A stretch of 64,000 bases of DNA from Archangium gephyra (lineage in GTDB: Bacteria; Myxococcota; Myxococcia; Myxococcales; Myxococcaceae): positions 3,294,501 to 3,358,500 of the forward strand of contig NZ_CP011509.1 in assembly GCF_001027285.1 (NCBI RefSeq), in the 5' to 3' direction. How positions within the stretch are numbered: the first letter of the stretch is position 1; every line of letters begins with the position of its first letter. Below are positions 13,501 to 28,622 of this stretch, in pieces. Both the position numbers and the translations under genes were made by a program. The notes beneath the pieces were generated by a model. It did not search any database. It was not told the DNA's origin and saw only the letters and a list, made by a program, of their open reading frames with translations.

Positions 13501-16500
13501 TCAGAGCGACAGGATTGCATACGCGCCCACCTCGTACTCGCGGCCCATCAACCCCTCGGAGAGGGCCGCCGCGCTGAGGCCCTCCGAGTACTGGTCCAGC
13601 ATGCGGACGATTCCGCGCACACCGAAGCGGGTGGTCACCGCGCCGAGCACGGGCCGCTTGAGGCCATAGGACAGGTCTCCCGTGGCCTGGAGCGGGTAGG
13701 TGAGGTTGAACACACGGTGGTAGTCGTACGGACCCCAGTCGTTCAGGCGCAGCTGCGCCGAGAGCATCATCGTGTCCAGCAGCACGGAGCCGTCCACGCC
13801 GTAGCGCAGAATCTGCCGTGCGTCCTCGCCCGAGGACTGGTTGCTGCCCACCATGGCCGTGCCATACAGCTTCAGCCGCTTGGTGGGGTTGCCCACCAGG
13901 CGCAGCGTGGCCTCCCACTCGTCCGCGGCGGGAGGCGCCTTGCCGAAGGCGATGGTGGCGCCGTTGGCGAGGATGGCGATGCCCGCGTCACGCGACGTGG
14001 GCTGGTGCCGGTAGACCAGGTCCAGGCCCGCGGCGAAGGGGGCGTCCTCGCGCATGTCCCGGTCCCAGGACCAGAACCACGTGCCGGGCGTCGGGTCGAA
14101 GGTGAGCAGCAGCTCGGCGCCGAGCGTCTCGCGGTTGTCCAGCACGCTGAACGTGTCCGACAGCACGCTGCGCGGCTTGACGCCCGGGTAGTACTGCCCC
14201 GTCTCCGCCACGAAGGTGTCGTTGATGGTGGGGTTCGGCCCGATGAGGGGCTTCTGGTAGAGCACGTTGGGCGCTACCTGGAAGGTGCCCAGCTGGAACG
14301 TCATGCCCGCCTGGCCGGCGTAGTGGTTGCCGCGGCCGCTCTCGCGCAGGCTCCAGCCCGTCAGCACCGTGCGCTGCTCGGGGCCCGCGTCCGCCACCAG
14401 CCCGCGGAACGAGGCCTGGGCGAACATGCGCACCATGCCCAGGTCATAGGTGAAGCGCGCCTTGGCGCCGAGCGTGTCCAGGAACTGCACCTTGTCCCGG
14501 AGCACCTCGTAGCCGCTGTTGAGGTAGCTGGCGCCGGTGGTGGAGCGCGTCCAGATGAACTCCTCGCCGATGCGCTGCGGCGCCGCGAAGATGCCACCCA
14601 GCTCCAGGCCCATGGGGCCGCGCTGCCACTCGAGGCCCAGCGCCGTCCTGCGCGCCACGCGCTCGCGGATGACGGAGGCCGTCTGCTGCACCGCGCCCCG
14701 GGCCAGGTCCTCCTGGTGCACGAGCGTCAGCGTCACCGGGCCCACGCCCTTGCGGTACTTGGCCACGATGGAGGGGTTGGCGCCCCAGTAGAGCTCCGGG
14801 CCCACCGCCACCTTGAAGCCGTCCAGCGCCTTCTTGCCGCTGAACACGACGCCGAAGGGCGCGTTGCCGTGGTAGATGTCGATGTTCGGCCCGTAGTGCG
14901 CCTCACGGTACAGGTTGAAGAAGTCGCCTTCCTCGCCCCAGTGCGTGTGGCCGACGCGGTAGAAGCCCTCGAGGTTGAAGTCCTCCCGGTCCAGCTTGAA
15001 CTCGGCCTGGTACAGCGCGAAGCGCTCCAGTCCGAGGGGCTGGCCCACGGCGCCGGTGGGCGTGGCCGGGGCCGCGGTGCCGCCCACCGTCGTCGGCGCG
15101 GCCTGCGTGCCCCGGTTCTCGTAGAAGAGGTTGTAGAGCCGGTTCTGCGCCACGTTGCCCACGATGTTGAACGACGCACGCCCGTACACGCCGGAGGTGG
15201 GCTGCATCGCCAGATCGAAGAAGATGGACTCGGTGTGGTCCACCGTGTCCAGGTTGGGCCGCGTCGTGGCGATGCTCCCGCGCGACATGGAGCTGTCCAT
15301 CACCAGCCGCAGGTTGGCGACGCGCACCGCGCTCAACTCCTCCGTGCGGGCCAGCGCCACGGAGGACTCGTAGCCGCGGGACATCTCCGTCGGGCGGATG
15401 GACTCGAAGTGCTGGCGGATGGTGTCGGGGGTGGTGGTGGCGGCGTACGGATCCAGGCGGAAGGCCGCCTGCAGCACGTAGTAGGCCGTGCGAGGCTGCA
15501 CCCGGGCAATGCCCGCGTCGTCCTCGGGGCCCAGCGCGCTGATGCCGAACCACTCCTCGTTCATGTTGTTCTGGCCCTCGACGAAGTCGCTCGGGTAGCC
15601 AGCGTTGGGCCAGGACGCGGTGGCGTCGTGGACGGACAGGTTGGCCTCCTGTCCCATCTTCCACCAGCCATCCACCCACTGGAACACGAAGCCACCGAGC
15701 GCGTTCTGCGCGCGGCCCTGCCCGTAGCTCTGCGAGTAGATCTCCTCCCACTGCTTGCGCAGGTAGTCCGCCTGGGCCAGGTGGTCCTCGCGGCCGGCCC
15801 TCGCGTCATAGGCGTCCGCGCCGAACTCGGTGAACATCACCGGCTTGTTCAGCTTCTGGAGCACCACGTCGAACAAGTCCCGCGCGGACGCGCCGCGGTA
15901 GACGTTGGCGCCGAAGATGTCCAGCTCGGGGGCGAGGCGCGCGATGAGGTCCACGTACTGCGCGTCACCGTTGGCGATGGACACCGGGTGGTGGGTGTCG
16001 CGGGCCTTGATGGTGCGCACCGCCTCGCCCATGAGCGAGTAGAGGTGCTCGGCGCGGGCGGCGTCCTCCTGGCCGGGGAGCGCTTGAATCTCGTACCCCG
16101 TCCAGTGCAGGCCGTAGTTGTTCTCGTTGCCCAGCATCCACATCAGCACGCCGGGGGTGCCGTGGTACTGCTCCACCCGCTGCGCCAGGTCCGTGAGCAG
16201 CGCCTTGCGGTGCACCGGATTGGAGTAGTCCGTGTTCGGCGCCGAGACGCCGGCCACGAAGGTGCCGTAGCGGCCCATGAGCGGGTTCAGCACGGTGTAG
16301 ATGCCGTAGTTCTTGTAGATGTACTCCACCCAGCGCGGGGGGATGTCGTCGAACTGGCGGATGGCGTTGACGCCCATGTCGCGCAGCAGCGTCATCTCCC
16401 GCTTGAGCACCGCCTGGATGAAGTTGTCGGTCTGGTTCCACAGCGAGTAGCGGTAGTTCTCGCCAATGGGCGTGTAGCCCCAGTTCATGCCGCGGATGGG

Positions 16501-16707
16501 GAAGTCCCGTCCGTCCACCTGGAGCTTGAAGCCGCGATCATCGCGGTAGACGCGCACGGTCTGCATCGCCGCGGCGGAAGCCGGCGCCACCGTGGGCTGG
16601 AGGGACGGGGCGGGCGCGGCCACCGGAGCGTCCGCCACCGGCTCGGCGGCGGCGGGCGCCTGCGACAGCGTCACCGCCAGATACGTGACAAGGGTAAGGG
16701 AGCTCAT
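13501..16707 (-). CDS. GH2-like TIM-barrel glycosidase fused to a probable outer-membrane beta-barrel
   Basis: 1068 aa from MSSLTLVTYLAVTLSQAPAAA, a signal-peptide-like start; the upstream extension of the frame lacks such a signal. Residues 50-410 form a GH2_C-like TIM barrel: GMNWGY (73-78), acid/base Glu195 in WMLGNENNYG, and nucleophile Glu294 in VMFTEFGADAY. Residues about 440-1068 have alternating amphipathic strands (ARFTYDLGMVRMFAQASFRG, GMTFQLGTFQVAPNVLY) typical of outer-membrane barrels, ending GAYAILSL. The start overlaps the GH1 stop by 4 bp. Inferred: a surface-anchored glycosidase, or a combined glycosidase and porin, for beta-glucan breakdown. Substrate not determinable from sequence. 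Confidence 0.8.
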   Translation of the reverse strand: MSSLTLVTYLAVTLSQAPAAAEPVADAPVAAPAPSLQPTVAPASAAAMQTVRVYRDDRGFKLQVDGRDFPIRGMNWGYTPIGENYRYSLWNQTDNFIQAVLKREMTLLRDMGVNAIRQFDDIPPRWVEYIYKNYGIYTVLNPLMGRYGTFVAGVSAPNTDYSNPVHRKALLTDLAQRVEQYHGTPGVLMWMLGNENNYGLHWTGYEIQALPGQEDAARAEHLYSLMGEAVRTIKARDTHHPVSIANGDAQYVDLIARLAPELDIFGANVYRGASARDLFDVVLQKLNKPVMFTEFGADAYDARAGREDHLAQADYLRKQWEEIYSQSYGQGRAQNALGGFVFQWVDGWWKMGQEANLSVHDATASWPNAGYPSDFVEGQNNMNEEWFGISALGPEDDAGIARVQPRTAYYVLQAAFRLDPYAATTTPDTIRQHFESIRPTEMSRGYESSVALARTEELSAVRVANLRLVMDSSMSRGSIATTRPNLDTVDHTESIFFDLAMQPTSGVYGRASFNIVGNVAQNRLYNLFYENRGTQAAPTTVGGTAAPATPTGAVGQPLGLERFALYQAEFKLDREDFNLEGFYRVGHTHWGEEGDFFNLYREAHYGPNIDIYHGNAPFGVVFSGKKALDGFKVAVGPELYWGANPSIVAKYRKGVGPVTLTLVHQEDLARGAVQQTASVIRERVARRTALGLEWQRGPMGLELGGIFAAPQRIGEEFIWTRSTTGASYLNSGYEVLRDKVQFLDTLGAKARFTYDLGMVRMFAQASFRGLVADAGPEQRTVLTGWSLRESGRGNHYAGQAGMTFQLGTFQVAPNVLYQKPLIGPNPTINDTFVAETGQYYPGVKPRSVLSDTFSVLDNRETLGAELLLTFDPTPGTWFWSWDRDMREDAPFAAGLDLVYRHQPTSRDAGIAILANGATIAFGKAPPAADEWEATLRLVGNPTKRLKLYGTAMVGSNQSSGEDARQILRYGVDGSVLLDTMMLSAQLRLNDWGPYDYHRVFNLTYPLQATGDLSYGLKRPVLGAVTTRFGVRGIVRMLDQYSEGLSAAALSEGLMGREYEVGAYAILSL

Positions 16708-18077
16708 GCCGCTTTCTCCACGTCCAGGCTGTTTTGAGTGACCACGGCGCGGTAGAGGTGGGCGCTGTCCTTGGGAATCCGCTTCTGGGTGGCGTAGTCC
16801 ACGAAGATGAGCCCGAAGCGCTTCTGGTAGCCGAAGGCCCACTCGAAGTTGTCCATGAGGGACCAGGCGAAATAGCCCCCGAGCGGCACGCCCTGCCGGA
16901 TGGCCTCCAGGGACGCCTCCAGGTGCGTGCTCAGGTACGCGACGCGCTTGGTGTCACGCACGCGCCCGTCCGCGTCCGGACCGGTGGCGTAGGCGGCCCC
17001 GTTCTCGGTGATGTAGATGCACGGCGGGTGGTAGTCCTTGTGCAGGCGCGTGAGGAGGTGGGTGAGGCCGCCCGCGAACACCTCCCAGTCCATGTCCGTG
17101 CGCTCCGGCTCGGCGTGGACGGTGCGGGGAGCGTTCTTCTCCTCGGGGATGCGGTCGCTGCGGATGATGCCGCGCGAGTAGTAGTTCACGCCCAGGAAGT
17201 CGGTGGGGGTGGCGATGTCCTCCATGTCCCCCTTGCGGATGAAGTCCAGCGAGTCCGAGGAGATGCGGCCGGCCGCCAGGTGGTCCGCCACCACGTCCTT
17301 CGGGTAGCCGCGGCCGTAGAGCGGATCCAGGAACCAGCGGTTGAAGCTGCCGTCGAAGGCGCGCGTCGCGTCGAGGTCCTCGGGGCTGGGCGAGGCGGGC
17401 TGCGAGGGCACCAGGTTGAGGGTGATGCCCACCTCGGCGTTCTTCACGTTGGAGCGCAGCACGGGCACCGCCTGCCCATGCGACAGCAGCAGGTGGTGGG
17501 CCGTGGCGAGCATCTCGCCCCACTGGTTCTTGTGCCCGGGCGCGTGCTCGCCGTTGGCGTGGCCCAGGAAGCTGATGCACCAGGGCTCGTTGTGCGTAAT
17601 CCAGCGCTTCACGCGATCGCCGAGCACCTGGCTCACCACGTCGGTGTACTCGACGAAGGCGCTCACCGTGTCACGCGCGGGCCAGCCGCCCTTGTCCTGC
17701 AGGGCCTGCGGGAGATCCCAATGGTAGAGCGTGACGAAGGGCTCGATGCCCGCCTTCAGCAGGCCGTCCACGAGGCGCGAGTAGAAGTCCAGGCCCGCCT
17801 GGTTCACCTGGCCCCGGCCCGCCGGGAGGATGCGCGGCCACGCGATGGAGAACCGGTACGACTTGACGCCCAGCCAGCGCATCATCTCCACGTCATCGCG
17901 CCAGCGGTTGTAGTGGTCGCACGCGACGTTGCCGTCCGTGCCGTCGGCGATCTTGCCCGGCGTGGCGCAGAAGCGGTCCCAGATGGACTCGCCGCGCCCG
18001 TCGGCGGTGGTGGCGCCTTCGATCTGGAAGGCGGAAGTGGCCACGCCCCAGAGAAAGTCAGGAGGAAACTGCCGCAT
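16704..18077 (-). CDS. GH1 beta-glucosidase
   Basis: 457-aa family 1 glycoside hydrolase, complete. It opens with FPPDFLWGVATSAFQIEG, typical of the family. The acid/base is Glu164 in THNEP and the nucleophile Glu358 in YITENG; the sugar-binding motif WSLMDNFEWAFGY lies near 405-417. There is no signal peptide, so it should hydrolyse imported oligosaccharides in the cytoplasm. The start MRQFPP has AAAGGAG about 10 nt upstream. It overlaps the ABC ATPase gene by 20 bp, linking uptake and hydrolysis in one transcript. Confidence 0.95.
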   Translation of the reverse strand: MRQFPPDFLWGVATSAFQIEGATTADGRGESIWDRFCATPGKIADGTDGNVACDHYNRWRDDVEMMRWLGVKSYRFSIAWPRILPAGRGQVNQAGLDFYSRLVDGLLKAGIEPFVTLYHWDLPQALQDKGGWPARDTVSAFVEYTDVVSQVLGDRVKRWITHNEPWCISFLGHANGEHAPGHKNQWGEMLATAHHLLLSHGQAVPVLRSNVKNAEVGITLNLVPSQPASPSPEDLDATRAFDGSFNRWFLDPLYGRGYPKDVVADHLAAGRISSDSLDFIRKGDMEDIATPTDFLGVNYYSRGIIRSDRIPEEKNAPRTVHAEPERTDMDWEVFAGGLTHLLTRLHKDYHPPCIYITENGAAYATGPDADGRVRDTKRVAYLSTHLEASLEAIRQGVPLGGYFAWSLMDNFEWAFGYQKRFGLIFVDYATQKRIPKDSAHLYRAVVTQNSLDVEKAA

Positions 18078-19053
18078 CGTCAACGACTCCTTTCGAGGAT
18101 TCGAGGTGGCAGCGGACGAGGTGGTCCGCCGCGGGGTGGTGTTCGGGAGGGCGCGTGGAATGGCAACGCGCATCCGAGTGGGGACAACGGGGAGCGAAGG
18201 CACAGCCATTCGGGGGCACCGGACCCGCCGAGGCCTTCACGGGCAGCGGGGCCCGCAGGAAGTCCGCGCCATCCGGCACGGCCGAGCGCAGCAGCCGCGT
18301 GTACGGGTGCCGGGGGGCCGCGAGGACGTCCGCGGTCCGGCCCGACTCGACGACGCTGCCCGCGTACAGCACCATGACGCGGTCCGCGAGGTGCCGCGCG
18401 CTCGCCAGGTCATGGGTGATGAAGAGGATGCCGATGCCGCGCTCCTTCGTCAGGCCGCGCAGCAGCTGGAGCACCTCCCGCCGGGTGGACACGTCCAGCA
18501 TGGAGGTGGGCTCGTCCGCGATGATGACGTCCGGCTCCACGGCGAGGGCCCGCGCCACGGCCACGCGCTGGCGCTGGCCACCGGACAGCTCATGCGGGAA
18601 GCGCCGGGCGAAGGACTCCGCCGGCGTCAGTCCCACCGACTCGAGCAGCGCGTGGACGCGCGCCTGGAGCTCCGCCCGCGTGGCCCGCCCGTGGCGCAGC
18701 AGGGGCCGCTCCAGGTGGTGGGCCACGGTGTGCACGGGGTTGAGCGAGGCGAACGGATCCTGGAACACCATCTGCACGCGGCCGCGGTAGGCCAGCGAGG
18801 CGCCCTGCCGCTCTCCGGCGAGCACGTCCTCGCCGCCGAGCCGCAGACTCCCGCCATCCGGCGCGTCCAGCCGTGCCAGCACCCGGGCCAGCGTGCTCTT
18901 GCCGCTCCCGGACTCGCCCACGAGCGCGACGATCTCCCCGCGCTCCAGCGTGAAGGACACGCCATTGAGCAGCGTGCGCCGGGAGCGCGAGAGGAAGCCT
19001 CCCACGGGCACGCTGCGCGACAGTCCGGTGACTTCCAGCAGGGGAGGGCTCAT
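18058..19053 (-). CDS. oligopeptide/oligosaccharide-type ABC importer ATPase (OppF/DppF-like)
   Basis: 331-aa ABC ATPase. Walker A is GESGSGKST (46-54), the signature is LSGGQRQR (156-163) and Walker B is VIIADEP (176-182). The C-terminal oligo_HPY region with HPYTRLL and CAFAPRCPHSDARC is typical of Opp/Dpp ATPases; its Cys cluster may bind an iron-sulfur centre. It works with the fused permease-ATPase, the second permease and the binding lipoprotein. Because it is embedded among glycosidases, the cargo is more likely beta-glucan oligosaccharides than peptides, as known for some Opp-type sugar importers. Confidence 0.92.
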   Translation of the reverse strand: MSPPLLEVTGLSRSVPVGGFLSRSRRTLLNGVSFTLERGEIVALVGESGSGKSTLARVLARLDAPDGGSLRLGGEDVLAGERQGASLAYRGRVQMVFQDPFASLNPVHTVAHHLERPLLRHGRATRAELQARVHALLESVGLTPAESFARRFPHELSGGQRQRVAVARALAVEPDVIIADEPTSMLDVSTRREVLQLLRGLTKERGIGILFITHDLASARHLADRVMVLYAGSVVESGRTADVLAAPRHPYTRLLRSAVPDGADFLRAPLPVKASAGPVPPNGCAFAPRCPHSDARCHSTRPPEHHPAADHLVRCHLESSKGVVDDAAVSS

Positions 19054-20813
19054 CGGGGGCCTCCTGGGAGCGCGGCCCGGGCGGGCGCCGGCACGTCGTT
19101 GGCCGCGAGCGTGAGGTCCGGTGACGGCTCGGCCACGTCGCTGGCGCTGAGGTGGGGGAAGGACGACAGCAGCAGCCGCGTGTACGGGTGGCGGGCCCCG
19201 GTGCGCAGGCGCTCCGAGGTGTCCACCTCCACCAGCTTGCCGCCCTGGAGGATGCCCACGCGGTCGGAGAGCGCGAGCAGCAGCGGCAGGTCATGGGTGA
19301 TGAAGAGGACGGCGAAGCCCAGCCGATCCTTCAGCTCGATCATCCGCTGGAGCAGCTCCTTCTGCACCACCACGTCCAGCGCGGTGGTGGGCTCGTCCAT
19401 CACCACCAGCTTGGGTTCCAGCACGAGCGCGAGCGCGATGCCCACCCGCTGGCGCATGCCGCCCGAGAGCTGGTGCGGCCAGGCATTCACCAGCTCCGGC
19501 GACAGGCCCACCATGGCCAGCAGCTCCCGTGCCCGGGCATAGGAGGCCGTCCGCGAGGTGCGCCCGTGCGCCGCCAGCGTGTCGTGGAACTGCTCGCCCA
19601 GCGTGAGCACGGGGTTGAGCGCGCTCATGGCGCTCTGGAACACCATGGACACCTGGGACCAGCGGAAGGCGCGCAGCGCGTGGGCATCCAGGGCCGTGAC
19701 GTCCGTGCCGTTGAACAGGATGCGTCCCTGGGTGATGCGCGCGGCGGGCGGCAGCAGGCGCAGCAGCCCGAAGCCGATGGTGGACTTGCCGCTGCCGGAC
19801 TCGCCGGCCAGGCCGAACACCTCTCCGGGCGCGATGTCGAAGGACACCGTGTCCACCACGCGGGAGGGGCCACGCTCCGTCGCGTAGTCGATGCACAGCT
19901 CGCGCACGCTCAGCAGCACACCGGGCGCCTGGGGCTCGCCCTGCGCGGCCGTCACCACCGGGGTGATGGGGGCCACGGCCGGAGGGGCCTTGAGCGCCGG
20001 GTTGGTCAGCTCGTCGATGGCGGAGCTGAGCAGCGTCAGCGAGAAGCCGACCAGGGCGATGCACACGCCGGTGGGGACGAAGATCCACCACGAGCGCGTC
20101 AGCAGCGCCGCGTCATTGGAGGCCCAGTAGAGGTTGGTGCCCCACGTCACCGCGCCCACGTCTCCCAGGCCGAGGAACTCCAGGCCCACCTGGGCACCCA
20201 CCGCGTAGAGCGTGTTGCCGATGAAGGAGGAGCCGAGCAGCGAGGCCATGTTCGGCAGCAGCTCCCGGGCGATGATGCGGGCCCGGCTCTCGCCCGCCAC
20301 CAGCGCGGCGGCCACGAAGTCCCGGTTGCGCAGGGACAGCGCCTCGGCGCGGAAGACGCGGGCGTTCCACGCCCAGCCCGCCACCGTCAGCACGGCCACC
20401 ATGCGCAGCGGACCGGACGGCAGGTACGCGCCCAGGACGATGGCCAGCGGCAGTCCGGGAATGACGAGGAACACGTTGGTGGTGAGCGACAGCGCGTCAT
20501 CCACCCGGCGGCCCAGGTAGCCGGCCGTCACGCCGATGAGCGCGCCCACCAGGGTGACGAGCAGGCCCACGGCGAAGCCAATCGCGAGCGTCTCGCGCGC
20601 ACCCACCACCGTCTGCGCGAGCACGTCCTGTCCCTGGCCCGTCGTCCCGAAGAGGTGGGCGCTGGAAGGCGGCTGGTGGGGGCGGCCCGCCAGGTCGCTC
20701 GGGTCCATCACCAGCCAGGGCCCCACCAGGGCCAGGACGAGGAAGAACAGCAGGATGCTCCCACCCACCGCGGCCTTCCGGTGGCGGAGCAGGCGTCGGA
20801 TGGAGTCACGCAT
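19050..20813 (-). CDS. fused ABC permease (DppC-like) and ATPase (DppD-like)
   Basis: 587 aa. Residues 1-275 are a DppC-type inner-membrane permease with about six hydrophobic segments and the EAA-loop region DFVAAALVAGESRARII near 165-181. After an Ala/Pro linker (about 276-300) comes a complete ABC ATPase: Walker A GESGSGKST (337-345), signature LSGGMRQR (449-456), Walker B VVMDEPT (470-476). These two parts are usually separate genes. The fusion is in one frame with no sign of a sequencing artefact. ATGA overlap with the next ATPase gene; 8-bp overlap with the preceding permease. Confidence 0.93.
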   Translation of the reverse strand: MRDSIRRLLRHRKAAVGGSILLFFLVLALVGPWLVMDPSDLAGRPHQPPSSAHLFGTTGQGQDVLAQTVVGARETLAIGFAVGLLVTLVGALIGVTAGYLGRRVDDALSLTTNVFLVIPGLPLAIVLGAYLPSGPLRMVAVLTVAGWAWNARVFRAEALSLRNRDFVAAALVAGESRARIIARELLPNMASLLGSSFIGNTLYAVGAQVGLEFLGLGDVGAVTWGTNLYWASNDAALLTRSWWIFVPTGVCIALVGFSLTLLSSAIDELTNPALKAPPAVAPITPVVTAAQGEPQAPGVLLSVRELCIDYATERGPSRVVDTVSFDIAPGEVFGLAGESGSGKSTIGFGLLRLLPPAARITQGRILFNGTDVTALDAHALRAFRWSQVSMVFQSAMSALNPVLTLGEQFHDTLAAHGRTSRTASYARARELLAMVGLSPELVNAWPHQLSGGMRQRVGIALALVLEPKLVVMDEPTTALDVVVQKELLQRMIELKDRLGFAVLFITHDLPLLLALSDRVGILQGGKLVEVDTSERLRTGARHPYTRLLLSSFPHLSASDVAEPSPDLTLAANDVPAPARAALPGGPR

Positions 20814-21786
20814 GGGCGCGGGTCCTCGGGTCCAGCCAGAGGCAGAGCAGGTCCACTGCGAAGTTGGCGGCGAGCACCGCCAGGGTGATGACCAGGAAGA
20901 GCCCCTGCATGAGCGGGTAGTCCTGGTTGCGCACCGCGAGGATGAGCAGGTACCCGGTGCCGGGGTAGGAGAAGACGATCTCCGTCAGCAGCGAGCCGCT
21001 CAGTACGAAGCCCAGCGCCATGCCGAAGCCGGTGACGTTGGGCAGCAGCGCGTTGCGCGCGGCGTAGCGGAACATCACCTGGCGCGGGGGCAGCCCCTTG
21101 GCGTGGGCCAGCCGGAGGGTGTCCGTGCCCAGCGTGGCCACCATGGTGTTGCGCATGCTCAGCATCCACCCGCCCAGCGTGGCCACCACGATGGAGACGG
21201 CCGGGAGCACCGCGTGCCGGGCCACGTCCGCCACGAAGGTGAAGGACAGCCCCGGCTCCAGGTCATGCGAGTACGCGTGGCGCAGGGGGAACCAGCCGAG
21301 CCCGAAGCCGAAGAGGTACAGGGCCAGCATGGCCAGCCAGAAGTAGGGGAAGGCCCCGAGGAAGGCGAACGCGGGCGCCGCCACCGAGTCCAGCCACCCG
21401 CCGCGGTTCCACGCCGCGAACACCCCGAGCAGGGAGCCCACCACGAAGCTGACGATGACCGCGCACCCGGCCAGCCCCAGCGTCCACACCAGCCCCGTGC
21501 CGATGACCTCCGACACGCGGGACGGGTAGTACGCGTAGGACAGTCCCAGGTCTCCGGTGAGCAGGTGCTTGAGGTACGTGAAGTACTGCATGTACAGCGG
21601 CGCATCCGTGAAGCCGAAGGCGGCGCGCAGGGCGTCCATGGCCTCGGGCTGCACCCGGCCCTCGAAGCGCGCGAACATCGCGGAGGCGGGGTCTCCCGGG
21701 GCCAGCCGGGGGATGACGAAGTTCAGCGTGAGCGAGGCCCACGCGGCGATGAGATAGAAGCCGAGCCGCCGGAGGACGTAGTGCAT
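20806..21786 (-). CDS. ABC importer permease (DppB-like)
   Basis: 326-aa inner-membrane permease of the Opp/Dpp class. It begins MHYVLRRLGFYLIAAWASLTLNF, has the conserved PGDP at 30-33, about six transmembrane segments, and the EAA-type loop TDTLRLAHAKGLPPRQVMFRYAARNALLPN near 222-251. It pairs with the DppC-like half of the fused protein to form the channel. The stop overlaps the start of the fused gene by 8 bp, and its start lies 1 bp after the binding-protein gene. Confidence 0.93.
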   Translation of the reverse strand: MHYVLRRLGFYLIAAWASLTLNFVIPRLAPGDPASAMFARFEGRVQPEAMDALRAAFGFTDAPLYMQYFTYLKHLLTGDLGLSYAYYPSRVSEVIGTGLVWTLGLAGCAVIVSFVVGSLLGVFAAWNRGGWLDSVAAPAFAFLGAFPYFWLAMLALYLFGFGLGWFPLRHAYSHDLEPGLSFTFVADVARHAVLPAVSIVVATLGGWMLSMRNTMVATLGTDTLRLAHAKGLPPRQVMFRYAARNALLPNVTGFGMALGFVLSGSLLTEIVFSYPGTGYLLILAVRNQDYPLMQGLFLVITLAVLAANFAVDLLCLWLDPRTRAHA

Positions 21787-21787
21787 C

Positions 21788-23449
21788 TCAGGGCTCCCTC
21801 GGGGCGAGCGCCGTCAGCACCAGCAGGCTGTCGGGCTCGGCGTGGGGGGACAGGCGCGCGTAGGGATTCTGCGCGCTCGGAAAGCCGGTGAAGCGCTTGG
21901 AGCTGGCCTCGCCCCAGGAGGGGTTGGGGAAGAGGGGAATGGCCGGCGCCAGCTCGGAGAAGCGCCGCTGCACCCCGGCCATCAGCTCCTTCTGCTTCTC
22001 GGGCGAGCTCTCCGTCTCGAAGCGCGTCAGCAGGGCGTCCGCCTCCACGTCGCCGAAGCGGTGCCAGTTGGCCGCCGCCACCTCGCCCACCGGGCGCACC
22101 GTGCGCGGCGACAGCAGCCACTTGTAGAAGGTGTACGGCGTGGGCCCGTCCAGTGACCAGGCGATGGCGAGCTGGAACTCCCCCTTCTGCAGGCGCGCGT
22201 ACCAGGCGCCGAACTCGTACGTCTTCAGGTGGGCCTGGATGCCCAGCTTGCGCAGGTCGCGGGCCAGCACCTGCCCGGCGCGCACCCAGTCCGACCAGCC
22301 GCCCACCACCTCGAGCTCCAGCTCCAGCGGCTGTCCGTCCGGCATGCGCCGCAGGCCGTCCGGGCCGCGCGTGAGGCCCGCCTCGTCCATCAGCCGGTTG
22401 GCGGCCGCCTCGTCATGGCGCACCCACGCGCCGCTGGCGGCCTCGGCGTCCCGCCAGCCCGTATAGGAGTCATTGAGGGCCGTGGCATCCGCCGGGCGCG
22501 TGTAGCCGTACATGGCGATGTCCACCAGCCGCTCCCGGTCCAGCGCCATGCTCAGCGCCTTGCGCACGCGCACGTCGTTGAAGGGCGGCCGCGTGGTGTT
22601 GGGGTAGAGGAAGACGGTGCTGCCATAGAGCGGGAACCAGCGCGTGTGGTGCTCCGGATCGCGGGAGACGAAGGTGCGGTCCACCGCGGGCACGAAGTTG
22701 CCGGCCCAGTCCACCTCGCCCTCCACCAGCGCCAGGTTGGCCTGGTCATTGGTGGGGAAGGCCAGGAAGCGCAGCGCGGAGACGGCCGGCTTGCCGGGCT
22801 GCCAGTAGTTCGGGTTGCGCCCCAGCTCGTACACCTGGTTTCGGAAGACGTTCACCTGGGTGAAGGGCCCCGTGCCCACCGGCTCCGGGTTGGTGAACGT
22901 CACCGGATCCGCCACCTTCTCCCAGACGTGGCGCGGGACGATGGGCTGGTGCGCCAGCTCCGAGAAGCCGGGGATGTAGACGCGGGAGAACTGGAACGCC
23001 ACCGCGTGCGTCCCCTCCGCGCGCACGTCCTCCAGGAAGCGCCACGCGCCGCCCGCGTCCAGCGCGGGGTGCTTCTTGAGCAGCTGGAAGGTGAAGGCCA
23101 CGTCCCCGGCCGTGAAGGGCCGCCCGTCGCTCCAGCGCACGCCCTCGCGCAGGGTGAAGCGCAGCGTCCGGTGATCCTCGGACCAGGCGTGCGCCGTGGC
23201 CAGCCACGGTGTCCACTGGCCGGTGGAGGGGATGAACACCTCCATGCACTCGTAGACGCCGGCCCGCGTGGGCCAGCGAGACCCCGCCCCGGTGAAGAGC
23301 GGGTTGAAGTTGCGCACCCACGCGCTCTGCTGTTCCACGGAGACGAACAGCGTGCCCGGCTGACGCGGGCGGGGCTCCGAGGAGGTGCAGGAGGCCACCA
23401 GCAGCGCCACCAGCAGCACCACGGGCACCAGCAGGAGCGCGGACTTCAT
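21788..23449 (-). CDS. substrate-binding lipoprotein of the ABC importer (SBP family 5)
   Basis: 553-aa lipoprotein (lipobox LVASC, Cys21) of the DppA/OppA-type family 5 binding proteins. Family signatures visible are LATAHAWSEDHRTLRFTLREG with VRWSDGRPFTAGDVAFTF (about 80-120), NPEPVGTGPF, and NDVRVRKALSMALDRERLV. Family members bind peptides, but several bacterial ones bind cello- or laminari-oligosaccharides. The GH16/GH1 context favours a glucan oligosaccharide here. It overlaps the GH16 gene by ATGA. Confidence 0.92.
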   Translation of the reverse strand: MKSALLLVPVVLLVALLVASCTSSEPRPRQPGTLFVSVEQQSAWVRNFNPLFTGAGSRWPTRAGVYECMEVFIPSTGQWTPWLATAHAWSEDHRTLRFTLREGVRWSDGRPFTAGDVAFTFQLLKKHPALDAGGAWRFLEDVRAEGTHAVAFQFSRVYIPGFSELAHQPIVPRHVWEKVADPVTFTNPEPVGTGPFTQVNVFRNQVYELGRNPNYWQPGKPAVSALRFLAFPTNDQANLALVEGEVDWAGNFVPAVDRTFVSRDPEHHTRWFPLYGSTVFLYPNTTRPPFNDVRVRKALSMALDRERLVDIAMYGYTRPADATALNDSYTGWRDAEAASGAWVRHDEAAANRLMDEAGLTRGPDGLRRMPDGQPLELELEVVGGWSDWVRAGQVLARDLRKLGIQAHLKTYEFGAWYARLQKGEFQLAIAWSLDGPTPYTFYKWLLSPRTVRPVGEVAAANWHRFGDVEADALLTRFETESSPEKQKELMAGVQRRFSELAPAIPLFPNPSWGEASSKRFTGFPSAQNPYARLSPHAEPDSLLVLTALAPREP

Positions 23450-24291
23450 GGGGCCCTCGAGTAGACGCGGACGTAGTCCACCTTCATCTGCTGAGGGAAC
23501 ACGGTGGTGCTGTCCGGCGGCCCCACGAAGCCACCGCCCACCGCCACGTTGAGGATGATGAAGTGCGGATGGTCATACACCCACCGCGTCCCGGCGGGCA
23601 GGCGCGCGGGCGTCGCCTCGAAGAAGGTGACGCCGTCCAGCATCCAGCGGATGCGGTTCGGATCCCACTCCACGGCGTAGATGTGGAAGCCCTCGTAGAG
23701 CTTCCCGCCGCTGACGGCGTGCTCCAGGCCGAGGTTGTCCCCGCCCGAGTAGCCCGGCCCGTGCAGCGAGCCGCGGATGAGGGCGGGCAGCTGGCCCCGG
23801 TACTCCAGGATGTCGATCTCCCCGCACTCCGGCCAGCCCACCTCCCCGATGTTGCTGCCCAGCAGCCAGAACGCCGGCCAGATGCCGCGGCCCACGGGCA
23901 GCTGGATGCGTGCCTCGAACCGGCCATAGGCCTGCTCGAAGCGCCCGCTCGTGTTGATGCGCGCGGACGTGTAGCTGCGGCCCTGGTAGCTCTCCTTGCG
24001 CGCGGTGATGACGAGGTTGCCGGTGCCGTCCACCGAGACGTTCTCCGGCCTCGCGGTGTCGAACTCCAGCTGCTCGTTGCCCCAGCCGTGTCCTCCCACG
24101 TCGTGCACCCAGCGGTCCGCGGAGGGCGGGGTGCCCGCCGGCCCGTCGAACTCGTCCTGCCACACCAGCTCCCAGTCGGAGCCGGGCTGCGAGATGGGCG
24201 TCACGTCGGGCTTGTTGACCCGGTTGGCCGCCGGATCACATGCGAGTGTGCCGAGGACGGCGAGCCACGGGAGGAGACGGAGTCGGATCAT
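23446..24291 (-). CDS. GH16 endo-beta-1,3(4)-glucanase lipoprotein (laminarinase-like)
   Basis: 281-aa lipoprotein (lipobox GTLAC, Cys18) with a single GH16 jelly-roll domain. The catalytic ExDxxE is GEIDILE, with Glu158 (nucleophile), Asp160 and Glu163 (acid/base). WVHDVGGHGWGNEQLEF, ARIQLPVGRGIWPAFWLL and HFIILNVAVGG are typical of bacterial laminarinases and lichenases. It should cut long beta-glucans at the cell surface to feed the ABC importer. No carbohydrate-binding module is attached; one is present in the divergent di-haem protein. ATGA overlaps at both ends couple it to the regulator and the binding protein. Confidence 0.95.
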   Translation of the reverse strand: MIRLRLLPWLAVLGTLACDPAANRVNKPDVTPISQPGSDWELVWQDEFDGPAGTPPSADRWVHDVGGHGWGNEQLEFDTARPENVSVDGTGNLVITARKESYQGRSYTSARINTSGRFEQAYGRFEARIQLPVGRGIWPAFWLLGSNIGEVGWPECGEIDILEYRGQLPALIRGSLHGPGYSGGDNLGLEHAVSGGKLYEGFHIYAVEWDPNRIRWMLDGVTFFEATPARLPAGTRWVYDHPHFIILNVAVGGGFVGPPDSTTVFPQQMKVDYVRVYSRAP

Positions 24292-25517
24292 GCTGTCTTC
24301 CGGACGTGTTGAAGGGGAAAGAGGGAGCGGTCGCGCAGCGCCGCCTGGAGCACGAGGGTGGCCGCGCCGACCGCGATGGCCCGGTCTCCCAGCGCGGAGG
24401 TGACGATGCGCGTCTCCGCCATGGAGGTGGACAGCGCCCGCTTGCGCACGGACGCGCGCAATGGATCCAGCAGCAGGTCTCCCACCGAGGAGATCTCACC
24501 GCCGAGCACGACGATGGCCGGGTTGAGCAGGTTGAGCAGACCCGCCACGGCGATGCCCAGGTAGTGCCCCAGGCTGTCGATGACCTGCCGGGCGGCCGGC
24601 TCGCCCGCGCGCGCGCCTTCCACCAGCTCGCGAACCGTGGGCGCACGGCGGCCCTTCTGGCCCATCAGCTCCCGGGCGCGCTCCACCAACGGCACGGTGC
24701 CAATGAGGGTGACGAGGCACCCGCGCAGCCCGCACACGCACTGCTGGCCGGCGGGATCCACGGCGATGTGGCTGATCTCACCCGCGGTGCCGCCCGAGCC
24801 CCGGTAGACGTCTCCGTGGATGATGAAGCCGGCGCCAATACCCGTGCCCAGCTTGATGTACGTCAGATCCTCGCCCCCGACGCCCGCGCCCCAGTAGCGC
24901 TCCGACAGCGCGCCCAGGTTGGCGTCGTTGTCCACCAGCACCGGCAGGTGGAAGGCGGACTTGAGCGAGTCCTGCACGTCGTAATCGCGCCACGCCGGCA
25001 CGATGAGCGGGGACAGCTTGCCCGGGGTGGACGGGTGGACGGGGCTCGGCACGGCCACGCCCATGCCCAGCACGGAGCGGCGCGGCACGCGCTCGGCGTC
25101 CAGGCACTCCTGCACCAGTTCCTTCACCTTCTGGAGCGTGCCCCGGGGGTCCTCGCGCACCGCATGGGGGGTGTGCCGGTGGGCGCGCACGCGCCCGCGC
25201 AGGTCCGTCAGGACGACCGTCACGTGCGTGGCACCCATCTCCACGCCGATGATGCTGAAGGCATCGTCACAGAAGCCGATGAGGGTAGGGCGGCGGCCCC
25301 CACGCGACACCCCGGCGCCGATGTTGCGCACCAGGCCGGAGTGCTCCAGGTCCGCGACGATGGCGGACACCGTCGACGGGCTCAGCTCCGTGCGCCGGGC
25401 GATCTCCGCCCGCGACAGCTGCTGCTCGCGCCAGATCATGTTCAGCAACAGGCTGCTGTTCTGCGCGCGCATGCCCGCCGCGTCGACCGTCGTCGTTTCC
25501 GCCGTTCCCACTTTCAT
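24288..25517 (-). CDS. ROK-family transcriptional regulator
   Basis: 409-aa regulator. An N-terminal winged helix-turn-helix (about 18-80; SRAEIARRTELSPSTVSAIVADLE) precedes a ROK sugar-kinase-like domain with DNDANLGAL (Asp198), GEISHI (His250) and the zinc motif CVCGLRGC (260-267). The start MKVGTAE was chosen over one six codons earlier because it makes an ATGA overlap with the upstream lipoprotein gene, as across the rest of the operon. ROK regulators are usually sugar-released repressors. Inferred: it senses a glucose- or beta-glucoside-type sugar and controls this operon through the palindrome near 26130-26149. Confidence 0.92.
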   Translation of the reverse strand: MKVGTAETTTVDAAGMRAQNSSLLLNMIWREQQLSRAEIARRTELSPSTVSAIVADLEHSGLVRNIGAGVSRGGRRPTLIGFCDDAFSIIGVEMGATHVTVVLTDLRGRVRAHRHTPHAVREDPRGTLQKVKELVQECLDAERVPRRSVLGMGVAVPSPVHPSTPGKLSPLIVPAWRDYDVQDSLKSAFHLPVLVDNDANLGALSERYWGAGVGGEDLTYIKLGTGIGAGFIIHGDVYRGSGGTAGEISHIAVDPAGQQCVCGLRGCLVTLIGTVPLVERARELMGQKGRRAPTVRELVEGARAGEPAARQVIDSLGHYLGIAVAGLLNLLNPAIVVLGGEISSVGDLLLDPLRASVRKRALSTSMAETRIVTSALGDRAIAVGAATLVLQAALRDRSLFPLQHVRKTA

Positions 25518-25909
25518 CGTGCGCTCACGCTCCATTCGGCCGCGCGGGAGCTGTGGGAGGGGGCGCCGAAGCCACCCACCACCTTCCCGTATGCGACGCG
25601 GCTGGCGCCGATTGTGTCCTGCTTCGGCTCCCTCGTGAGCGGGACTTCCTCCACTTTCAGCCCGAAGCCCTCCATGGCCGGCCCCATGCCCACCAGGAAG
25701 GGGGCCTTCTCGTGATCCGTTGCGCCCCAGGCGGAGAAAGACACCGGGGGTGCGCCTTTCGGGCGCTCGGAACCCGCCGGAGAGCTCATCCGCGTGCCGG
25801 GATTCGGCCGGGGCTTCTCAGCGGGGGCGCACGCGCCGAGCAGGCCCAGCACCGCGAACACTCCCGCGGCTGCCCAGGTCCACTCGAAGTGCTTGTGCCG
25901 CCGCTGCAT
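25514..25909 (-). CDS. small lipoprotein, first gene of the beta-glucan operon
   Basis: 131-aa protein with a lipoprotein signal (hydrophobic 12-26, LLGAC, Cys27) and a low-complexity Pro/Ser/Gly tail of about 100 aa. No known family. GGAGGGGAG lies 3-4 nt upstream of the start codon, a strong Shine-Dalgarno sequence. It overlaps the ROK gene by ATGA. As the leading gene it may mainly secure translation of the regulator, but a surface role is possible. Confidence 0.65.
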   Translation of the reverse strand: MQRRHKHFEWTWAAAGVFAVLGLLGACAPAEKPRPNPGTRMSSPAGSERPKGAPPVSFSAWGATDHEKAPFLVGMGPAMEGFGLKVEEVPLTREPKQDTIGASRVAYGKVVGGFGAPSHSSRAAEWSVSAR

Positions 25910-26372
25910 GGCTCCCCTCCGCTACTGGATGGCTTCGTACGCACGACGAAGAAACTGGATGCCGCCGGAAACCCGGCAGGCGTTGCGCGCCGCGTCACCG
26001 TGGACGCTCCGCGTCAGAGGAAAACAGCCCCTGACACACGTCCGGTCCGGCTGACCGCGCCTCCGGCTCCCTCCCCCTCCCTTCACCCACGCACCCAAGT
26101 TCGTTCGAGTGATGAAGAAAGTACCAGCCACTTGCTAGTGATTGCAAGTATCCCGGTGGTTGCAGGTGGGGGAGCTGCGCGCATCCGCGCATGACGCGCC
26201 GCGCCGCGCCGTCAGCCGCGAAATGCGGCCACTGTTACAAACTCAACATTATTAGGTGGGTTTACCGAACTCTATAGGAATTCGGGCCTACGAGCCTAAC
26301 ATGGGGACTTCCTTCGGACGGTGGAGTTTCTCATGTGCCCGTGCGGAGGACTCGACCGGAGAGAAAAACCAT
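25910..26372. promoter_or_regulatory. 463-bp divergent control region of the beta-glucan locus
   Basis: No protein gene is convincing here. It separates the 11-gene operon from the CBM56/di-haem gene. The left half is GC-rich leader DNA. Positions 26100-26150 carry a palindrome inside a leftward promoter, and 26230-26290 is unusually AT-rich (ACAAACTCAACATTATTAG), likely the rightward promoter zone, although I see no clean -35/-10 pair there. Confidence 0.6.
26118..26149 (-). promoter_or_regulatory. predicted promoter and ROK operator of the beta-glucan operon
   Basis: Reading leftward, TTGCAA (26147-26142) and TACTTT (26123-26118) are 18 bp apart, a fair sigma70-type pair. A 6-bp inverted repeat, ACTTGC at 26130-26135 and GCAAGT at 26144-26149 with an 8-bp spacer, overlaps the -35 box and promoter spacer. 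A repressor bound there would block RNA polymerase. Assignment to the ROK protein is inference from location. Confidence 0.5.
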
Positions 26373-28622
26373 ATGCGAAACAAAGCTGCAGGATTGGCAG
26401 TGGGATTGGTGGTCGCCACGCTGCTGGCGGGAGTGGCCTTCGCCGCGGCGACGTACGGGGTCCAGGCCTCGGGCTCGTCGGCGATCTTCTATGTGAACAC
26501 CACCTCGTGGGCGGACATCCACTACAAGGTCAACAACGGTGGCCAGCTCAACGTGCGGATGACGGTCGCCAATGGCCGCAACGAGTTCACGCTGACGAAC
26601 CTGACCTCGGGCACCTTCGTCGACTACTCGTACACGTACTGGGATGTGGCGTGTAACTGCGCCCAGGACACCACGTGGGCGCGCTACACGCATGGCACCA
26701 CGGGCGGCGGCACGGACGCGGGCACGGGCGGTGGCACGGACGCGGGCACGGGCGGCGGCGGTGGCGGCGACACGGGCACCATCGTGCCCCTGTACAACAG
26801 CGGCACGGCGCTGGAAGCGGCCACGGTGCAGGACACGGCCACGGCGATCATCACCCGCGTTGGCGATCGCGTCCGGGACCGTCACGCGCGTGAGGACCAG
26901 TACCAGGCGTACGACCACTACCTGTCGCTCTACTTCGAGAACCGCACGCACTGGATCGAGATCGTGGACCAGGTGGCCAAGGGCGGCAGCCAGGTCATCG
27001 TCAACCTCTACACGCTCTACCCGTACGACAGCCCGGACTTCCGCGCGTTCTTCCGCGGCCTCAACACGGAGGCCGAGTACTTCCACAACGCGGACTTCAT
27101 CCGGGTGAACGACTACCAGCACACCGCCAGCGTCAACTTCAACGCCAAGGAGGGCCGCGCCATCCGCATCGGTGACCGGATGGAGCTCGAGGTCGGTGTC
27201 TTCCTGCGCCAGCCCGTGAACGGGCGCTTCAACTACTACTCCACCATCATGCTGTACATGGTGGGCACCGGCGGCATCGTGCCGCTCGAGGTCTCCGGCG
27301 CCGTGCAGGACTCCTTCCCGATGCCGGCCATTGGCCAGAGCGGTGGCCGCACCACCGGCAACCAGCACCTGTCCAACGAGCCGAGGAACCACTTCCTGCA
27401 GATGGCGCTGAACATGGCGCCGGTCAACGCGCAGCCCTTCGTCGAGGGCCGCCGCATCCACCACACCGACTTCGGGGATGGCAGCCACTCCGAGCCGAAC
27501 AACCCGGCCCTCACGGCCCAGGCGAACAAGCTCGGGCCCAACTACATCGCGCGCTCCTGCATCGCCTGCCACGTGCAGAACGGCCGCGGCCTGCCGCCCG
27601 CCGTCAACACCTCGCTGAGCAACTACACCGTGAAGGTGGGCCGCGTCAGCGGTACCGCCGTGACTGCGGATCCCTCCCTCGGCTACCGCATCCAGCCGCG
27701 CAGCACCAGCGGCACGCCCGAGGGTGACGTGCGCATCTCGGGTTGGACCACCACCAGCGGCACCTTCACCGACGGCACGGCCTACCAGCTGCGCAAGCCG
27801 GCCTACAGCTTCCTGAACGTCACGCCCACGAACTACTCGGCGCGCATCACCCCGCAGCTGGTGGGCATGGGCCTGCTGGAGGCGATTCCCGAGACGACCA
27901 TCGCCGGCCTGGCGGACCCCACCGACAGCAACGGTGACGGCATCTCCGGGCGCATGCAGACCGTGACGGATCCGGAGACGGGCGCCACGCGCCTGGGCCG
28001 CTTCGGCTGGAAGGCGGGCGCGGCGAAGGTGCGTCACCAGATCGCCGACGCGTTCCGCAACGACATGGGCGTCACCAACCCCGTCTTCACGACGCTGGAC
28101 TGCGGCACGTCGCAGGCGGGCTGCGCGGGCACCAGCACGGAGCTGAACAACACGGACCTCGACAAGCTCACCCGTTACATCGCCCTGCTCGGCGTCCCGG
28201 CGCGCCGTGACTACCGCGACACCCAGGCCCTCCAGGGCGAGACGCTGTTCCGCAACGCGGGCTGCGCGAAGTGCCACACGGAGTCGCTGACCACGAGCGC
28301 GTACCACCCGAACGCGGAGCTGCGCAACCAGGCCATCCGCCCGTACACGGACCTGCTGCTGCACGACATGGGCACGGGCCTCGCGGACAACCTGCCGGAA
28401 GGCCAGGCCTCCGGAGCCGAGTGGCGCACGCCTCCCCTGTGGGGCATCGGCCTGACGGCGGGCGTCAGCGGCGGCGAGGCCTACCTGCACGACGGCCGCG
28501 CGCGCAACCTGACCGAGGCCATCCTCTGGCACGGCGGTGAGGCGCAGGCCGCGCAGCAGGCCTTCGTCCGCATGACGAGCACCGAGCGCGCCGCGCTGTT
28601 GCGGTTCCTGCAGTCGCTGTAA
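26373..28622 (+). CDS. secreted CBM56-like module fused to a di-haem oxidoreductase
   Basis: 749 aa with a Sec signal peptide (MRNKAAGLAVGLVVATLLAGVAFA). Residues about 27-97 (ASGSSAIFYVNTTSWADIHY, then NVRMTVANGRNEF) match CBM56, a beta-1,3-glucan-binding module. A Gly/Thr/Asp linker (105-134) leads to a beta-rich segment (about 140-310) and a di-haem oxidoreductase region of the DHOR (thiol oxidoreductase-like) type, with CIACH (396-400) and CAKCH (631-635) and the TPPLWGIGL motif near 687-695. The start was set at the signal peptide; the frame opens 39 codons earlier. Divergent from the beta-glucan operon. Inferred: redox partner acting on or near beta-1,3-glucan, either oxidising it or supplying electrons to an oxidative enzyme. 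No such oxidase is in the window. Confidence 0.85.
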   Translation: MRNKAAGLAVGLVVATLLAGVAFAAATYGVQASGSSAIFYVNTTSWADIHYKVNNGGQLNVRMTVANGRNEFTLTNLTSGTFVDYSYTYWDVACNCAQDTTWARYTHGTTGGGTDAGTGGGTDAGTGGGGGGDTGTIVPLYNSGTALEAATVQDTATAIITRVGDRVRDRHAREDQYQAYDHYLSLYFENRTHWIEIVDQVAKGGSQVIVNLYTLYPYDSPDFRAFFRGLNTEAEYFHNADFIRVNDYQHTASVNFNAKEGRAIRIGDRMELEVGVFLRQPVNGRFNYYSTIMLYMVGTGGIVPLEVSGAVQDSFPMPAIGQSGGRTTGNQHLSNEPRNHFLQMALNMAPVNAQPFVEGRRIHHTDFGDGSHSEPNNPALTAQANKLGPNYIARSCIACHVQNGRGLPPAVNTSLSNYTVKVGRVSGTAVTADPSLGYRIQPRSTSGTPEGDVRISGWTTTSGTFTDGTAYQLRKPAYSFLNVTPTNYSARITPQLVGMGLLEAIPETTIAGLADPTDSNGDGISGRMQTVTDPETGATRLGRFGWKAGAAKVRHQIADAFRNDMGVTNPVFTTLDCGTSQAGCAGTSTELNNTDLDKLTRYIALLGVPARRDYRDTQALQGETLFRNAGCAKCHTESLTTSAYHPNAELRNQAIRPYTDLLLHDMGTGLADNLPEGQASGAEWRTPPLWGIGLTAGVSGGEAYLHDGRARNLTEAILWHGGEAQAAQQAFVRMTSTERAALLRFLQSL

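Follow-up and report, generated by a model that had tools for sequence, protein, structure and literature searches.

A CBM56-linked di-haem protein of Archangium gephyra as a possible oxidative helper in beta-1,3-glucan breakdown

Known CBM-linked cytochromes and CBM56 enzymes

Oxidative attack on polysaccharides is, to our knowledge, known mainly from copper LPMOs, and secreted proteins that link a carbohydrate-binding module (CBM) to a c-type cytochrome are also part of polysaccharide breakdown. For example, Cbp2D and Cbp2E of Cellvibrio japonicus are required for growth on insoluble cellulose (PMC12542752), TERTU_3803 of Teredinibacter is another CBM-linked c-type cytochrome protein (PMC10916295), and an isolated X183 domain is able to reduce an LPMO (PMC8981238). 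These cellulose-related proteins carry CBM2 or CBM10 with X183, X132 or X158 domains, and the accessible text of the sources reports neither a CBM56 nor a DHOR domain for them. The CBM56 module occurs in beta-1,3-glucanases (GH81 BH0236, GH64, GH16), and on a GH81 enzyme it increases activity on insoluble linear beta-1,3-glucan (PMC9609564).

Here, we describe a gene from a 64,000-nucleotide window of the Archangium gephyra genome (NZ_CP011509.1, positions 3,294,501 to 3,358,500), whose product shares the binding module and fold of the CBM56 glucanases but has a di-haem DHOR protein in place of the hydrolase. A first-pass annotation had called this pairing unusual, which it is, although CBM-linked c-type cytochromes such as Cbp2D and TERTU_3803 are precedents in kind. 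No paper joining CBM56 to a cytochrome was found in the literature searched. CBM-linked c-type cytochromes are already known, and what appears to be new is the CBM56-X-DHOR form, with a well supported address, beta-1,3-glucan, and a proposed chemistry that is plausible.

Architecture of the protein

The reading frame at 26373-28622 (+) is open and codes for 749 residues (mature mass ~78 kDa without haem). There is an alternative in-frame GTG upstream at 26256; the ATG start has a GGAG ribosome site and is followed by a predicted Sec signal peptide (residues 1-24, 26373-26444), read from a hydrophobic stretch that runs to AFA/AAT and lacks a lipobox, so the protein is probably secreted. Both domains named by the first-pass annotation lie in this one chain, as the CBM56 and DHOR matches exceed their Pfam cut-offs and two CXXCH motifs are present.

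The CBM56 module (PF22184) spans residues 29-100 (26457-26672) and scores 81.2 bits (E 6.5e-23; gathering cut-off 27). A sequence search of the PDB with the N-terminus returned the CBM56 glucanases 7quz (E 3.4e-16), 5t7a, 5h9x and 6a6c, the remaining matches being weak antibody-like ones. The modelled domain (pLDDT ~90) superposes on BhCBM56 5t7a with a TM score of 0.77 and an rmsd of 1.9 Å, and its identity to 7quz is 45%, so the fold expected for residues 27-97 agrees with that of solved CBM56s. Beta-1,3-glucan is a well supported binding address for the protein.

A Thr/Gly/Asp-rich linker with DAGTGGG repeats (26694-26780), whose repeats and length differ between orthologues, joins CBM56 to a region of ~190 residues that was absent from the first-pass description. 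This unnamed domain X (residues ~137-324, 26781-27344) is common to all long DHORs, has no sequence match in Pfam or the PDB, and contains the invariant residues R166, R170, H171, E174, R191 and D199. Modelled alone, it reached middling confidence (pLDDT 62, pTM 0.65), and the model suggests that X is probably an Ig-like beta-sandwich. Structural comparison (VIA) placed CBM56 5t7a first with a Z of 8.7, which is the background level for such models, as are the Z values of the other best matches, CrdA and P19. Matches of domain X to TauD were weak (E ~0.01) and were set aside as noise.

The di-haem domain

The DHOR domain (PF06537, also DUF1111; residues ~323-749, 27339-28619) scores 239.5 bits (E 7.5e-71; cut-off 22), with its best stretch at residues 489-749. 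With other members of the family it has in common a full domain match, the two CXXCH motifs, and invariant LLLHDMG, WRT.PLWG and LHDGRAR...WHGGE motifs; typical short members lack CBM56 and X. The haem motifs, CIACH at residues 396-400 (27558-27572) and CAKCH at 631-635 (28263-28277), are invariant among the aligned DHORs. A scan of viral contigs found two DHOR loci only.

The C-terminal half, which holds haem 2, is homologous to bacterial cytochrome c peroxidase (CCP) and MauG, as its profile matches the genome's own CCP/MauG proteins (hhalign probability 96.9%, E 1.8e-10). The aligned region keeps the MauG-type HDG histidine (H706) within an LHDG...WH motif (28485-28532), whose two histidines are both invariant. 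Fourteen residues past H706, all aligned DHORs have a histidine, H720, where the CCP of Pseudomonas aeruginosa has Met275, which we take to be a haem ligand. CCP and MauG-like proteins have Met and Tyr, respectively, at this spacing, so the invariant His720 sets the A. gephyra protein apart from both; it also differs from them in its extra domains and in an N-terminal half that cannot be aligned (CCP numbering, H261/M275, is that of 1eb7). Because His720 stands at the position of the CCP ligand, it is predicted to be the second ligand of haem 2, which would make this haem bis-His. On the haem 1 side the alignment with CCP stops at the motif, and the conserved Q556 and D564 are candidate distal residues only.

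A profile search found no solved DHOR structure, an AlphaFold model of the full protein from a 20-sequence alignment had a pLDDT of 40 outside CBM56, and a confident full model was obtained for neither DHOR nor X. Peroxidase or oxidase activity of DHOR is proposed by analogy with its family.

The same wider superfamily also includes extracellular oxygenases such as RoxA and the P. aeruginosa oleate dioxygenase (PMC6797691, PMC4496055), and the A. gephyra protein could in principle be a di-haem oxygenase of this type acting on a wall polymer or lipid. The RoxA-like profile PF21419 matches six places in the A. gephyra genome and the CBM56-X-DHOR protein is not among them, which makes this reading very improbable. 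RoxA has a hydrophobic O2 pocket formed by F301 and F317. Two of the genome's RoxA-like di-haem proteins (L117 and L118, at G000:C1:3747568 and 1467256) have PYLHNGSV motifs and are themselves candidate extracellular oxygenases.

Distribution in the Myxococcota

Of 195 Myxococcota genomes surveyed, 52 encode a CBM56, and by coordinates all 52 have a CBM56-X-DHOR protein. The complete architecture recurs, with 68-92% identity, in Archangium, Pyxidicoccus, Myxococcus and Corallococcus, and its retention across 52 genomes argues that the combination did not arise by chance. The 52 genomes contain 83 CBM56 copies, 63 of which are on X-DHOR proteins (52 N-terminal and 11 inserted). Among the other 20, four were read from sequence as CBM56-GH16 proteins, an assignment that Pfam confirmed for two, and five were read as C-terminal modules that follow fn3-like ones, with Pfam confirmation for one. 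Some myxobacterial proteins (L086-L093) are other enzymes, some of them unnamed, that bear fn3 and a C-terminal CBM56, and two X-DHOR copies (L071, L072) lie in tandem on one strand.

The 12.49-Mb A. gephyra genome contains a single CBM56, that of the protein described here, and each of the 16 Corallococcus genomes likewise encodes just one, carried by the X-DHOR orthologue. A secretome study of Corallococcus silvisoli c25j21 on a cellulosic substrate or chitin reports a stand-alone CBM56 family protein (PMC10875029); given the Corallococcus distribution, this secreted protein is most likely the X-DHOR orthologue.

This distribution also bears on the suggestion of the first-pass annotation that the protein feeds electrons to a polysaccharide-oxidising enzyme. 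CBM-linked c-type cytochromes for which such a role is proposed, among them Cbp2D of Cellvibrio, are known (PMC8981238, PMC12542752, PMC10916295), and 43 of the 52 genomes with CBM56-X-DHOR encode an AA10 LPMO. However, AA10 (PF03067) is absent from the A. gephyra genome and from eight other carriers, one of which (G101) has the GH1-DHOR-GH16 cluster discussed below, so feeding of an LPMO is not supported in A. gephyra and is not a general explanation. A role as an electron shuttle to an LPMO or another oxidative enzyme is therefore very unlikely, and it ranks just above the RoxA-like reading.

Repeated gain of sugar-binding modules

Relatives of the protein carry sugar-binding modules in more than one position. 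In 11 paralogues a CBM56 interrupts the DHOR domain past haem motif 1; for example, in L060, L061, L094, L095 and L096 it is not N-terminal and directly follows this motif (CVACHVNNGRALPP...). A protein from another family of the phylum (L073) has a CBM6 insertion in this region of DHOR, ~35 alignment residues further on, and two others (L055, L056) have Ig-like, F5/8 type C (discoidin) and fn3 modules ahead of X-DHOR. In addition, a 1459-residue protein from a Pseudoalteromonas plasmid unites GH16, CBM6/35, CBM56 and X-DHOR in one chain.

In a tree of X-DHOR built without these modules, the members with N-terminal CBM56, inserted CBM56 and discoidin modules formed separate supported groups, and a single clade of all CBM56-bearing X-DHORs was rejected (p-AU 0.0013), with long branches in the tree and losses possible. 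When only CBM56 was used to build the tree, the inserted copies joined the CBM56s of GH16 enzymes (support 83/86) and were separate from the N-terminal copies. Both trees suggest that X-DHOR relatives gained sugar-binding modules several times.

The modules inserted beside haem site 1 could be taken to place glucan at the active haem, in which case the protein would be a CBM-guided, haem-based polysaccharide oxidase able to oxidise or cleave beta-1,3-glucan itself, as a counterpart of copper LPMOs. The first-pass annotation had likewise suggested that the protein may act oxidatively on bound glucan. We consider the stronger claim of a haem counterpart of LPMOs unlikely.

Gene neighbourhood

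The gene is divergent from a minus-strand operon that encodes a GH16 beta-glucanase-like lipoprotein 2.1 kb upstream (23446-24291; PF00722, E 1.5e-23), a ROK-family regulator (24288-25535; PF00480), an Opp/Dpp-type ABC importer for oligopeptides or oligosaccharides (18058-23449; ATPases, permeases and SBP_bac_5, assigned with Pfam) and a GH1 beta-glucosidase (16704-18209; PF00232, E 1.1e-163). Since the A. gephyra genome has only four GH16 genes, we estimate the chance of finding one within 2.3 kb at the order of 0.2% (4 x 2 x 2.3 kb / 12.49 Mb). The first-pass annotation had used this operon to tie the protein to glucan. The operon is there, but it makes a weak argument for the substrate, as among the other orthologue loci examined it adjoins only that of A. 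violaceum Cb vi76 (L001). The Myxococcus and Corallococcus orthologues have other neighbours, conserved within each genus, and glycosidase neighbours are missing at most orthologue loci, so adjacency was rejected as conserved evidence.

Two further genes near this locus deserve mention. A cytochrome P450 gene (28708-30015, +) immediately follows the DHOR gene in the same orientation and is not conserved beside the orthologues examined. Adjoining GH1, 13501-16842 (-) encodes 1113 residues with a glycosidase-like N-terminal half (GNENNYG, FTEFGADAYDA) and a barrel-like C-terminal half, and has no Pfam match at 1e-5.

A stronger case from context than the operon in the window comes from L060, in another genus, where genes for a LacI regulator, GH1, an X-DHOR with inserted CBM56, a CBM56-GH16 protein, a binding protein, an ATPase and a permease follow one another on one strand with short gaps. 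The regulator and transporter families differ from those of the window operon, and the two clusters therefore look independent. Together with the repeated module gains and the GH16 fusion, the GH1-DHOR-GH16 cluster strengthens the link between the CBM56/di-haem pairing and beta-1,3-glucan.

The catalytic domain may nevertheless act on something other than glucan, because a short relative lies between imelysins and no conserved neighbours were seen beside X-DHORs without modules. One possibility is an anchored peroxidase that CBM56 holds on the walls of fungi, oomycetes or plants and that would there remove H2O2 or oxidise phenolics or proteins. Pfam describes PF06537 as a putative peroxidase family, DUF1111 proteins have been named di-heme peroxidases (PMC3143127), the anchors of relatives vary and include discoidin modules, and orthologue neighbourhoods are not alike between genera, all of which would suit such an enzyme. 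The GH16 fusion and the GH1-DHOR-GH16 cluster implicate glucan itself, however, and an anchored peroxidase with a non-glucan substrate, although the most credible of the alternatives, seems to us rather unlikely.

The short relative also raises the possibility that the protein serves to acquire iron or haem on a surface of glucan. The nearest short DHOR in the A. gephyra genome (L075, 6105-9700) is flanked by two imelysins, one confirmed by Pfam and the other read from sequence, and the pairing of DUF1111 with imelysin is a known iron-uptake setting (PMC3143127). Neither the gene in the window nor L060 was seen to adjoin imelysin or iron genes, and iron acquisition would leave the repeated gain of glucan modules unexplained, making this the least probable of the readings considered.

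A proposed role in glucan breakdown

The reading we prefer, to which we give about an even chance of being correct, is that the protein is a secreted di-haem c-type peroxidase or oxidase, distantly related to CCP and MauG, that is docked on beta-1,3-glucan by CBM56 and assists in glucan or cell-wall breakdown. It builds on features that were computed, namely the domains, the two haem sites, the repeated gain of beta-glucan modules, the linkage and fusion to GH16/GH1 proteins, and the homology between the haem 2 half and CCP/MauG. CBM56 would dock the enzyme on beta-1,3-glucan, haem 2 (H635, with H720 as its predicted second ligand) would relay electrons to haem 1 (H400), and haem 1 would react with H2O2 or O2. 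The enzyme could then oxidise glucan, glucan oligosaccharides or further components of the glucan-rich wall near its anchor, and this oxidation may aid hydrolysis by GH16 and GH1 enzymes, for example in an attack on fungal or oomycete walls.

Fungal and algal walls have beta-1,3-glucan as their main fibre, and myxobacteria are predators that also meet fungal walls. As myxobacterial CBM56 is mostly found on haem enzymes, and sugar anchors appear to have been gained several times, these observations point, as a hypothesis, to an oxidative arm of beta-1,3-glucan breakdown. They also offer a substrate hypothesis for the DHOR family, in which CBM56-X-DHOR may be an oxidative aid to glucan degradation that has been overlooked.
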